In this document: positions 2,187 through 5,536 of the stretch, piece by piece
How positions within the stretch are numbered: position 1 is the first letter of the stretch
Layout of the letters: each line of letters opens with the position of its first letter
Origin: JALXCG01 sp026991065 [NCBI: Gemmatimonadota bacterium]
Lineage (GTDB): Bacteria; GCA-2686955
DNA length: 5,536 bases
NCBI GenBank assembly: GCA_026991065.1
Contig: JALXCG010000512.1
Span: forward strand, 1 to 5,536
Reading direction: 5' to 3'
The notes under the pieces: model-generated
Databases searched by the model: none
Seen by the model: only the letters and a program-made list of their open reading frames with translations
What the model was told of the DNA's origin: nothing
Position numbers and translations under genes: made by a program

Positions 2187-3692
2187 CTACTCAGCCGGTG
2201 GCTGCTCCCGTGGTAGTGCCACGTAAAAGGTGGTTCCCGGCCCACCGCTGGTGGAGCTGGATCGATCTCCAGGGGAGACTACCCACACGCGCCCGCCGTG
2301 TAGCTCCACCAGGCGCCGGGTGATCGGCAGCCCCAATCCGCTGCCGGCGCTGGCGGTCGGGTCCAAGCGAGTAAAGCGATCAAAGACCTTTTCCAGTGCA
2401 GCGGGCTCAATGCCGGGGCCATTGTCGGCGATGTAGAGGCGGCAGACCGGGCCGTCCGGATCAACTTCAGCGCTCTTCTCCACACTGCTCACACACTCCA
2501 ACCCGACTGCGACATCACCACCTTCGGAGCTGTAGTTGACGGCGTTCTGGAGGAGATTGATGATGATCTGGCGGACCTTTGCCGGATCGGCATCCACCAG
2601 AAGCGGCCTGTCGGTGCCGACGAAATTCAGGTCGATGGCGCGTTCGCAGGCTGCGGGTGCAACGACTCCGATGGCCGCGTGGATCGCTTCGCGGATGTCG
2701 AAGCGAGAACGATTCAGGCGCACCCGTCCCGCCTCCATGCGAGTCAGATCGAGCAGTTCCAGAATCAGGCCGCGCAGGTGATGAGCACTGGCATGGATCT
2801 TCTTCATCGGGTCAATCTGCGCCGGCGGCATTTCACCGGCGAGACCATCGAGCAGCAGCTCCGCATAGCCGATGATGGCGTTGAGCGGAGTCTTGAGTTC
2901 GTGCGAGACCGTTTGCAGGAACTCACTCTTCAAGCGATCCAGTTCCAGCAGGCGCTCATTGGCCCGATCCTGCTCGCGGTGGGCGATCACCAAAGCCTCG
3001 TGCTGCTCTTGCAGCTTGATGTGCGCTTCGCGCAGTTCATGGGTGCGGCTTTCGACCTGACGCTCCAGATACTCCCCCCACAACGAGAGATCCTTGCGGG
3101 AGCGCTCGAGATCGCCGGAGAGCACGGTCAGGGCGCGATTCTGCTCCTGCACCGACTGGTAGAGGCGCGCGTTTTCTATGGCAATCGCGCCATGGTGGGT
3201 CAGCATGGTCAGCGCGTTAATCTGGTACTTGCGCAGTTCGGCGGCAGCGGTCGGCACCTCGATCGCGACCACGCCGAGGGCACCGCCCGGAGCGACCAGG
3301 GGCAGGTAGATCACAGAAGTGCTGCCGGCACTGCCAGGATCGGGGATGACCCGCTCGGTGGAGAGAACCCAAGCGGCGTAACCACTATCGATCGCATGTT
3401 TCACGGCATTCGCGAGATGGGCGCCGGGGTTCGTGGCCTTGCAGGGATCAAAGCTGCGCTTGTCGGCATCGAACCAGTACATGGCGACATCTACAAAGGG
3501 CACCAGTTGGCCGATCAGTTGCAGGAGGACTTTGATGACTTCCCCCTCTTCACGCCGCAACGACAGGCGCTCGGCCGAGCGGAAAACCCCCGAGAGGCGT
3601 TCATACGCATCAGCGAGAGCTTCATAGTCCCTGAGCGTGGGGCGGGAAGGCCGTTGCAGATGCCCCGGCTCGAGCGGAAGAGGTTCGGACAT
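2187..3692 (-). CDS. Cytosolic GAF-domain sensor histidine kinase
   Basis: This is a two-component sensor kinase: it should autophosphorylate on a histidine and pass the phosphate to a response regulator, which is not in the window. Of 501 residues, about 20-45 form a helix and about 45-175 look like a divergent GAF sensor domain (VDVAMYWFDAD near 67, GALGVVAIEV at 137-146, AIAIENARLY at 169-178). A long charged coiled coil spans about 178-258. The HisKA domain follows with the H-box SHELKTPLNAIIGYAELL (263-280; His264). The ATPase domain has the N-box NLLQNAVNYS (379-388; Asn383), the G1 box DNGPGI (423-428), the F-box FDRF (437-440) and the G2 box GSGLGL (450-455). All catalytic motifs are present. 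No membrane segment or signal peptide is visible, so it probably senses a cytosolic cue; the ligand cannot be told. The ATG at 3692 is preceded by CCACCACC and lacks a recognisable Shine-Dalgarno sequence. The HDOD gene lies upstream, across the inserted element. Confidence 0.93.
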   Translation of the reverse strand: MSEPLPLEPGHLQRPSRPTLRDYEALADAYERLSGVFRSAERLSLRREEGEVIKVLLQLIGQLVPFVDVAMYWFDADKRSFDPCKATNPGAHLANAVKHAIDSGYAAWVLSTERVIPDPGSAGSTSVIYLPLVAPGGALGVVAIEVPTAAAELRKYQINALTMLTHHGAIAIENARLYQSVQEQNRALTVLSGDLERSRKDLSLWGEYLERQVESRTHELREAHIKLQEQHEALVIAHREQDRANERLLELDRLKSEFLQTVSHELKTPLNAIIGYAELLLDGLAGEMPPAQIDPMKKIHASAHHLRGLILELLDLTRMEAGRVRLNRSRFDIREAIHAAIGVVAPAACERAIDLNFVGTDRPLLVDADPAKVRQIIINLLQNAVNYSSEGGDVAVGLECVSSVEKSAEVDPDGPVCRLYIADNGPGIEPAALEKVFDRFTRLDPTASAGSGLGLPITRRLVELHGGRVWVVSPGDRSSSTSGGPGTTFYVALPREQPPAE

Positions 3693-3749
3693 GGTGGTGG
3701 AAGAAGTGAAGCGGATGTGGAGTGTGGATGCCGGGCCGCGGATGGCTTA

Positions 3750-3771
3750 GGAGCCTGTCGCGCAATGGCTT
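3750..3771 (+). repeat. Terminal inverted repeat, left end of the element
   Basis: This 22-bp end begins GGAGCCTGTCGCGCA and pairs with 3890-3911. The two mismatches are at 3765 and 3768. A TA dinucleotide lies directly outside it. Confidence 0.85.
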
Positions 3772-3889
3772 TCGAGCCCGTGTTCGGGCCTGCTTCAAGA
3801 TCACGGTGCTGAGTTCGCCGGAAGGCTGGTTGCCTTTCAAGGACTTAGCAACGCAGAGATCGGAGCAGGAACGAGTGCGGGGCGACGTG

Positions 3890-3911
3890 AAGACAATGCG
3901 CGACAGGCTCC
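3890..3911 (-). repeat. Terminal inverted repeat, right end of the element
   Basis: This is the inverted copy of 3750-3771. Base 3911, its outermost position, is the third base of the HDOD gene's TAG stop codon; the flanking TA at 3912-3913 supplies the first two. Confidence 0.85.
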
Positions 3912-4804
3912 TAGCCCAAGAGGTGACGAGACTCGTCCAGCCGTCTGCGGACCTCCCCTTCGAGTTTCTCGAATTCCACCGCGAAAGCCGCGATGACCCC
4001 GTCGGAAGCCGGCAAGGCGCGCGGACGCGGATTCAGCTCGGGGTTCTCCCCGAGTCCCCATTGGTCGATCAGTTGCTCAGCCACGTGGACTGCCAGTGCA
4101 GAGGGATGAGCACGAGTTTCATCATTCGGGCCATGGTGGAAGAGTACACCATCCACCACCGTTGCCGGCAACCCCCACTTTTGCAGCAGCAAAGCCCCCA
4201 ACTCCGCGTGGTCGACCCGCCACACCGCCCGCTCCCGTTCAATGTCATCACTGCGAGCATCGGGAAGTCCGGCCAGCGCAGCCTCCTCGGGGAAATAGAG
4301 CGGCAGGAGGAACTCCGCGATGTCGTGAAAAAGCCCGCTGGTCTGCGCATCATCCGGCGTGCCGATTCGCACGATGTCGGCGACTTGACGCGCCGTTTCG
4401 CTCACCATCACGCTGTGCGTCCACCAAGAGTTCCAGGTTTTCGGTGGAAATGCGGTGCGCAACGTCTCGGCCACCCCAACCGAAAGAGCAATCGCCCGTA
4501 CCGCGGTAAACCCAAGAAAAGCAACGCTGCGCGATATACTCGCCACCGGACGCGGCAGCGCGAAATAGGAGGAGTTGACCAGGCGCAGCACTTTGCTGGC
4601 CAGAGCAGGATCCTGAGCAAATGCCTGGTCGAACTGCCCCATCGTCGTCATTGGATCGTTGCAGAGTTCGATGACCCGGGTCACCACTTGCGGCAAAGCG
4701 GGAAGTTCCTCGACCCGCCGCAGGAAACGCTCACGCAGCGGGCCTTCAAGCGCACCGTCTCGCTTCTCGGTATCCTCCGGCGGTCGATTGCTGCGTCTCA
4801 TCAT
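3911..4804 (-). CDS. HDOD-domain signalling protein
   Basis: HDOD domains are relatives of HD phosphohydrolases found in bacterial signalling and regulatory proteins. Most are thought to act by protein contacts, and the exact role here is unknown. With the ATG at 4804 the protein has 297 residues. The HDOD core covers about 27-224. It opens with LPALPQVVTRVIELCNDP (34-51), followed by DPALASKVLRLVNSSYF (65-81) and SISRSVAFLGF (89-99). The HD-superfamily positions are largely kept: His130 (WWTHS), His160-Asp161 (LFHDIAE), His199 (DHAELG) and His223-His224 (FHH). The C-terminal tail is charged and helical. The frame opens further upstream at a GTG at 4882 (323 residues), but that start has no Shine-Dalgarno sequence. 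The ATG at 4804 follows a purine-rich GAGAGAG and is preferred. The stop codon is shared with the end of the inserted element. A possible -10 (TATAGC, 4868-4863) lies upstream without a good -35. The downstream kinase gene is a likely functional partner. Confidence 0.88.
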   Translation of the reverse strand: MMRRSNRPPEDTEKRDGALEGPLRERFLRRVEELPALPQVVTRVIELCNDPMTTMGQFDQAFAQDPALASKVLRLVNSSYFALPRPVASISRSVAFLGFTAVRAIALSVGVAETLRTAFPPKTWNSWWTHSVMVSETARQVADIVRIGTPDDAQTSGLFHDIAEFLLPLYFPEEAALAGLPDARSDDIERERAVWRVDHAELGALLLQKWGLPATVVDGVLFHHGPNDETRAHPSALAVHVAEQLIDQWGLGENPELNPRPRALPASDGVIAAFAVEFEKLEGEVRRRLDESRHLLG

Positions 4805-4903
4805 TTGCTGCTCTCTCGCACCAGCCTGTTTCTGCTGGACCGATCGCACGTCAAACCACGGCGCTATACACTCCCTCGACACCGCTTATGTTCTGATCGT
4901 AGG

Positions 4904-5536
4904 TCACTCTTCCGCCGAAGGCAGCAACTTCAGCGCAGAAAGCACCTCCTTAAAGTGATCGGCAGACCATACCGGAATGCCCAGCGCCTTCGCTTTCCCG
5001 ACTTTCGACCCCGGCGCCGCACCAGCGATCACATAGTCGGTGCGAGTGGAAACGGTGGCCGTCGGACGGGCGCCGGCGCGGATAGCGAGTTCTTTGGCTT
5101 CCTCCCGAGTAAAACCGGGAATCGCCCCGGTGATGACCACCCGCTTGCCGCGAAGAGGTGAGACAGGGGGTGCCGGAGCATCCGCGACCAGGACCGGAGT
5201 TTGCTCGGAAGCCGAGGGCTGCGAAGAGAGGTTCACGCCCGCCGCGGCCAGTGCATCGATCAGTTTGAGACTGCGTTCATCGGCGGCAAAGCGCGCCACA
5301 CTGGCGGCAATCACGGGGCCGATTTCAGCCAACTCTTCAAGCGTCTCGCGCGGCTGCGCGAGCAACTCTTTCAAACTCCCAAAACTGTTGGCCAGAGTCC
5401 GCGCGGCAGTGCGTCCAACATGGCGGATTCCCAGGCCGGTCAGGAGTCGCTCCAGTGGCTGCTGCTTGGAGCGTTCGATTTCGGCAATCAGCTTGGCTGC
5501 AGATTTGGCGCCCATGCGCGGCAATTCCGCCAGCTG
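4904..5536 (-). CDS. ligA: NAD+-dependent DNA ligase, C-terminal 210 residues (cut by window edge)
   Basis: LigA seals nicks in duplex DNA using NAD+ during replication and repair. Only the C-terminal part is here; the adenylation, OB-fold and zinc-finger domains lie outside the window. Numbered from the edge, residues 1-95 are the helix-hairpin-helix region: a KSAAKLIAEIERSKQQPLER block (11-30), then LLTGLGIRHVGRTAARTLA (31-49), which matches the LigA-specific LGIRHVG stretch, then EIGPVIAASVARF (71-83). A proline- and alanine-rich linker of about 25 residues (102-127) leads to a BRCT domain (about 127-203) with GKRVVITGAIPGFTREEA (130-147), TVSTRTDYVIAG (161-172), PGSKVGKAKALGIPVW (175-190) and a closing DHFKEVL. 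The frame runs open to the window edge, so the CAA (TTG) codon near 5524 is internal and not a start. The gene ends in TGA, 99 bp before the preferred HDOD start, and no strong terminator is visible in that gap. Confidence 0.96.
   Translation of the reverse strand, partial: QLAELPRMGAKSAAKLIAEIERSKQQPLERLLTGLGIRHVGRTAARTLANSFGSLKELLAQPRETLEELAEIGPVIAASVARFAADERSLKLIDALAAAGVNLSSQPSASEQTPVLVADAPAPPVSPLRGKRVVITGAIPGFTREEAKELAIRAGARPTATVSTRTDYVIAGAAPGSKVGKAKALGIPVWSADHFKEVLSALKLLPSAEE

Follow-up and report, generated by a model that had tools for sequence, protein, structure and literature searches.

A CTAG-associated MITE whose ends recurrently form the stop codons of host genes

Introduction

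MITEs that target CTAG and repeats that supply stop codons are each known; the present work contributes their combination in one element, together with counts and a likely cause. IS630 reportedly prefers TA within CTAG, and IS870 is said to need CTAG and to generate the stop codon of its own ORF1 upon insertion. IS870 thus resembles the element described below in its CTAG target and in the creation of a stop, which in IS870 serves its own ORF1 and here serves a host gene. Elements of the IS5/IS701 type produce a 4-bp duplication of the YTAR type.

The published systems that come closest are summarized here from excerpts of the cited accounts. BOX repeats at the very 3' end of 36 Streptococcus pneumoniae genes encode the stop codon, without strong evidence that these genes are truncated (PMC3049150). 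Like the present element, they are small, multi-copy and supply host stop codons, but the likeness is limited to this stop-supplying property: the excerpt gives no target-site rule for the stops (PMC3049150), whereas the present element enters CTAG and, with its end and the flank, restores the stop exactly. MITEPsy1 of Pseudomonas syringae, possibly derived from ISPsy2, inserts at CTAG or YTAA and is, like the present element, non-autonomous, short and CTAG-inserting; it differs in its length of 100 bp, its 4-bp duplication and its terminal repeats, and the excerpt of its description does not mention host stop codons (PMC3189936). Duplication of TA is shared with IS630/Tc1-mariner elements and with the MITE RUP (PMC2170065, PMC2229807). 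For ISY100, AA/TT was also duplicated in two insertions, which parallels the AA/AA flanks of some copies described below (PMC2170065). As a counter-example, insertion of RU-1 in Erwinia carotovora seemingly removed the normal stop codon and lengthened the protein (PMC2759123). A literature search directed mainly at journals outside subscription found no report of a census of a CTAG-targeting MITE at stop codons.

Results

The stretch of DNA analyzed, 5,536 nt in length and referred to here as the window, belongs to a draft genome (G000) of 4.14 Mb in 902 contigs that is 83.8% complete. It contains, at 3748-3913, one copy of a hairpin-forming MITE of about 167 bp including its flanks, which consists of TA, a 162-bp element and a second TA. 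The features of the locus are as follows:

3748..3749, left TA (target-site duplication), in the context T-TA-G
3750..3911, element (MITE) without the TAs, 162 bp, self-complementary nearly throughout
3750..3769, plus strand, left terminal inverted repeat
3892..3911, minus strand, right terminal inverted repeat
3912..3913, right TA (target-site duplication), which on the minus strand forms the first two bases of the HDOD stop codon
3911..3913, minus strand, TAG stop codon of the HDOD gene, composed of the TA flank and the end base of the element
3911..4882, minus strand, gene for an HDOD-domain protein, with a GTG start at 4882 or an ATG start at 4804; the codon model picks 4804
2187..3692, minus strand, gene for a GAF/HisKA/HATPase sensor kinase, the next gene, on the same strand as the HDOD gene, with its start 55 bp past the element

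The minus strand over 3925-3905 reads CACCTCTTGGGCTAGGAGCCT, and the HDOD gene ends with CTC TTG GGC TAG. The TA of this stop codon lies at 3912-3913, and its G is base 3911, the terminal base of the element. The initial annotation had described the stop in exactly this way, and it had also stated that removal of the element together with one TA gives GGC TAA GCC; the flanks joined with a single TA indeed read so on the minus strand. The HDOD protein is genuine (PF08668, E 3.9e-47 in Pfam). The ends of the window element form a 29-nt inverted repeat that is 86% complementary, and the copy deviates from the family consensus at 9 positions, the range among 41 copies being 2 to 31. The window had no match in Rfam at gathering thresholds. 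Elsewhere in the window, the minus strand carries a urocanase gene (411-2105, Pfam), an adjoining ORF (3-404) that by eye resembles imidazolonepropionase and, at 4904-5536, an ORF that carries HHH_2 and BRCT domains and looks like the C-terminal portion of a DNA ligase.

A search of G000 with a 20-base end pattern, allowing up to 3 mismatches, gave 104 end matches, and the reversed pattern used as control gave none. Sequence was fetched for 100 of the 104 places, and the fetched loci contain 42 full-length copies, 41 of them 165-169 bp long with inverted ends; copies whose ends have decayed past the search pattern are included only where they lie inside these loci. The element is thus short, multi-copy and bounded by terminal inverted repeats, as is typical of a MITE. 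At positions 5-8 of the terminal repeat, both arms share a change in the full-length copies L086, L094, L097, L125 and L131, as if the arms were correcting each other or were selected jointly. Diverged copies are present in G001, a genome of the same family (70 end matches versus 1 in the control). G000 and G001 were the only 2 of 41 searched genomes that contain the element; the remaining 39 gave no match at E<=0.001. An exact 19-base end scan of genome contigs added two further records, titled Deltaproteobacteria and Planctomycetota. The Deltaproteobacteria-titled contig (genome G041) carries a 167-bp element that shares these ends, differs in most of its interior (13.3 bits against the profile built from G000) and also folds as one long hairpin, and the Planctomycetota-titled contig (L176) carries one lone element end. 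A candidate second class with an A-rich inner end was seen as isolated ends alone.

The sequences flanking the copies reveal the target. For the 26 full copies in G000 with a TA flank, 44 of the 52 neighboring bases fit C-TA-G; in G001, C precedes TA at 47 of 53 TA ends. Outer dinucleotides were equal in 20 of the 40 two-ended copies of G000, compared with a mean of 11.3 after shuffling (p=0.00075), and this is the pattern of a 2-bp target-site duplication, a further hallmark of MITEs. Among the 28 two-ended pairs other than TA/TA, 8 were equal directly and 2 as the inverse; some copies carry CA/CA, TG/TG, AA/AA or TC/TC. The equal non-TA pairs suggest that certain targets never were TA. A 4-bp duplication of CTAG, as in the IS5/IS701 type, in which the G would belong to the target, is disfavored because at the 64 TA ends the outer base varies more often (13/64) than the inner base (4/64; p=0.035). 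The initial annotation had implied that copies always have a flanking TA and had named copies without one as evidence against its reading. On this point it was incorrect: 64 of the 119 usable ends of G000 carry TA and 55 do not, and the latter are unable to form TAG or TAA. The TA-less ends are consistent with a TA that was lost for want of protection, or with targets that originally were not TA.

To what extent element ends coincide with stop codons was recorded with genes called by a self-trained codon model, independently of external annotation. For each end, the question was whether a gene reading into the element on that strand stops on the end. In G000, 119 ends had enough flanking sequence and 3 further ends did not. 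Altogether, element ends form 35 gene stops. At 11 more TA ends, the gene whose 3' end points towards the element has its stop before reaching it, and just 2 genes continue into the element on the strand that reads towards it. Against the expectation that one third of the frames would stop on the end, 35 stops versus 2 run-ins correspond to p=6e-15. When added background sequence is included, the copies resolve into 79 insertion units, of which 32 lie at stops (a share that can be inflated, because the end searches began from TA and favor TA ends), 43 lie between genes, 3 overlap coding sequence and 1 is not near any called gene. The 32 include two decayed copies (L156 and L160) that were found in contigs sampled regardless of the element. 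The two-ended units alone comprise 15 at stops, 24 intergenic and 1 coding. The other genomes show the same phenomenon, with 10 stop, 47 intergenic and 4 overlapping coding units among the 61 in G001, and with 5 of 12 distinct sites in G041 being gene stop codons. The proposal that the element end rebuilds TAG at stops, and does so repeatedly, is therefore well founded.

The genes concerned are in large part recognizable. A Pfam scan of 33 of the 35 stop genes of G000 gave a match at E<=1e-3 for 25, of which 23 exceeded the Pfam cut-off, and none for 8. Several domains reach the stop, namely Biotin_lipoyl (103-169 of 170 aa), Inositol_P (8-326 of 329 aa) and CLP_protease (47-209 of 217 aa) in G000 and BE_C (425-526 of 527 aa) in G001. 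Domains were found in 3 of 5 scanned stop genes of G001 and in 1 of 3 of G041; the G041 stop genes have open frames of 217 to 501 codons, two of which run to the end of the locus. Three units of G000 (L071, L083 and L088) end two convergent genes at once, and these copies appear to split stops that were common to both genes. The copy at L088:1606-1772 lies between convergent genes for a DUF3307 protein and a methyltransferase, both with Pfam domains; each gene ends on one element end, and the two apparently had an overlapping common stop before. In L083 one gene has a Pfam domain and the other does not, and in L071 a gene with a Pfam domain faces a 51-aa ORF.

The codon present before insertion can be read across the element. 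It is a stop in all 18 readable cases, 15 times TAG and 3 times TAA, and the HDOD gene of the window is one of the three. Its ancestral stop may therefore plausibly have been TAA, as the initial annotation proposed from the joined flanks. However, since 44 of the 52 target side bases fit CTAG, an ancestral TAG whose far G later changed to A is plausible too, and TAA is one of two origins that fit the locus. An empty site was sought for a view of the locus before and after insertion. Via the HDOD protein, neither the same family, in which the best hit in another genome is 34% identical and too distant, nor the genome contigs, a set that may omit the records nearest to the window's genome, yielded one.

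The distribution of the target word itself bears on why so many copies lie at stops. At the G+C content of G000 (0.63), about 1,190 CTAG are predicted in 350 kb of background sequence, and 72 were found; CTAG is thus rare, by about 16-fold. These 72 comprise 16 stops, 34 intergenic and 22 coding sites, and the 200 kb around elements contain 10, 27 and 10, respectively; outside of elements, the total for 550 kb is 26 stops, 61 intergenic and 32 coding sites. TAG is a common stop in this genome of 63% G+C (33 of 90 complete genes). The ratio of stop to intergenic sites was 32:43 for insertions and 26:61 for all non-coding CTAG, an upward trend (odds ratio 1.75, p=0.10) that was also not significant against the background contigs (16/50, p=0.26), against the vicinity of elements (10/37, p=0.15), in a binomial test against a fixed share of 0.32 (p=0.06) or for two-ended copies alone (15:24, p=0.41). 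In G001 the trend was downward (10:47 versus 10:26, p=0.30), with a background that consists mostly of the element loci themselves. Compared with all TA sites of G000 (83 stop and 627 intergenic), in contrast, the excess of insertions at stops is strong (p=3e-10). Insertions in coding sequence are depleted in both genomes, with 3 of 78 units versus 32 of 119 CTAG sites in G000 (p=2e-5) and 4 of 61 versus 63 of 99 in G001 (p=7e-14). Because of this depletion, and because there is no significant excess over non-coding CTAG sites, the stop niche is most likely explained in the main by the choice of target word, combined with selection against insertions in genes, and recognition of gene ends by the element is most likely not the cause. 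A mild additional preference for stops is possible in G000. Of the claim that stop codons are a recurring niche, the recurrence thus holds; the preference is for CTAG, with no significant preference for stops as such.

What happens after insertion is reflected in the retention of TA. TA is present at 29 of the 86 non-stop ends of G000. If stop ends decayed equally, about 69 lost ones would be predicted besides the 35 kept, an estimate that is subject to the caveat that some non-TA ends never were TA, and only 2 genes read into the element. This comparison supports selection on the rebuilt stop that keeps the TA on the stop side. Isolated ends that lack a recognizable interior account for 13 units of G000, 8 of them at stops. 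Twelve were inspected individually, from a set that may be incomplete; one of them, L077, is cut by the contig end. The share at stops was not significantly higher among isolated ends (8/12) than among the other units (24/63; p=0.11). The isolated ends would be remnants of decay in which the stop end was retained. They include L068:1239, L070:1542, L081:1532, L095:1532, L110:1573, L112 and L129, and are often located near a convergent gene while forming a stop. By eye, the match to the element often stops after 12-16 bases; much shorter remnants would be invisible to the search pattern.

Discussion

The recurrence at stops, the target word, the rebuilt codon and the depletion in coding sequence are direct observations, and they make it likely that a CTAG-targeting MITE rebuilds host stops and that target choice and selection together explain its niche. 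The element would be a non-autonomous DNA transposon (MITE) of about 167 bp including its flanks whose insertion at the TA in the middle of CTAG leaves that TA duplicated. Both of its ends start with G, and a TA-flanked copy would thereby offer TAG to genes entering from either side. CTAG is rare, and about one third of its non-coding occurrences are stop codons; insertions in coding CTAG would be purged. A copy that enters a stop would be a minor burden to the host, because it immediately restores that stop, on both strands where convergent genes have a common CTAG. From then on the gene would depend on the TAG of the element, and selection would hold this end while the remainder decays, which would account for the partial copies and the short end remnants at stops. 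Since preservation is no better at stops than elsewhere, and since copies there have no orientation preference, the element itself is probably neutral for the host, a tolerated passenger.

It is unlikely that the transposition machinery, over and above its preference for CTAG, actively seeks out stops or the 3' ends of genes. Such targeting would be in line with the large excess over all TA sites, of which 83 of 710 are at stops, and with the share of 32 stops among the 75 stop or intergenic units of G000 compared with 26 of 87 CTAG sites, but none of the comparisons with CTAG is significant and the trend is reversed in G001. Furthermore, the TA ends that are not at stops have the CTAG context as well (C before TA in 24/29). 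Truncation, that is, insertion inside coding sequences so that the stop is new and not rebuilt, is conceivable in principle, because an element that offers TAG ends any gene with TA at codon positions 1-2, and small C-terminal losses might escape notice, with 8 of the 33 scanned genes lacking a Pfam match. It is nevertheless highly improbable: none of the 18 readable pre-insertion codons is TAC or TAT, genes entering in another frame are almost lacking, and several Pfam domains extend to the stop.

A further possibility is that the element is kept at gene ends because its hairpin is of benefit to the mRNA, by protecting the 3' end, by termination or by control of translation termination; such roles have been proposed for other hairpin-forming bacterial repeats. 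Indeed, the whole element is predicted to form one hairpin that begins at the stop codon: the stretch 3745-3916 folds at -103.3 kcal/mol, with z -9.5 on the plus strand and z -6.6 on the other. In addition, single copies have the same change in both arms of the terminal repeat, and 13 of 52 consensus pairs have a double change, but covariation adds little (-1.13 kcal/mol). Copies at stops were no better preserved than intergenic copies (16 versus 24 copies, p=0.42), they involve left and right ends alike (13 and 14) although the two strands fold differently, and certain of them are fragments or short end remnants. We therefore regard a benefit of the hairpin as quite improbable. Rather doubtful is also the broader view that a considerable number of the bacterium's genes now obtain their stop codons from the mobile element, with a hairpin that may jointly tune termination and mRNA 3' ends. 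TAG-forming ends and the CTAG target would then constitute a renewable landing site at stops, with ends that are locked by host selection.

If the MITE is a passenger that rebuilds stops, its persistence in a gene-dense genome would follow a simple, countable rule, namely a rare target word that often is a stop and that is rebuilt by the element ends. Other CTAG-targeting elements (IS630, IS5-type and their MITEs) would then be predicted to accumulate at TAG stops and also at convergent gene pairs with a common CTAG. Through the same process, genes would come to rely on mobile DNA for both the stop codon and the 3' untranslated region.

The transposase that mobilizes the element would, we infer, be IS630-like or IS5-like. 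The TA duplication and the preference for CTAG are those of IS630/Tc1-mariner elements. The DDE_3 transposase typical of IS630 (PF13358) was not found in the 83.8% complete draft G000. Five Pfam families were searched in draft assemblies (PF13358 and PF01609 in G000; PF13340 in G000 and G001; PF13586 and PF13546 in G000, G001 and G041), and none yielded a transposase with matching ends. One DDE_Tnp_1 protein in G000 and one DDE_5 protein in G001 were detected, neither with element ends in the fetched loci; the loci L238 and L279 lack such ends. On the Planctomycetota-titled contig, the isolated end lies at 2392-2411, and a nearby ORF (934-1926) is transposase-like and, by eye, ISL3-like.
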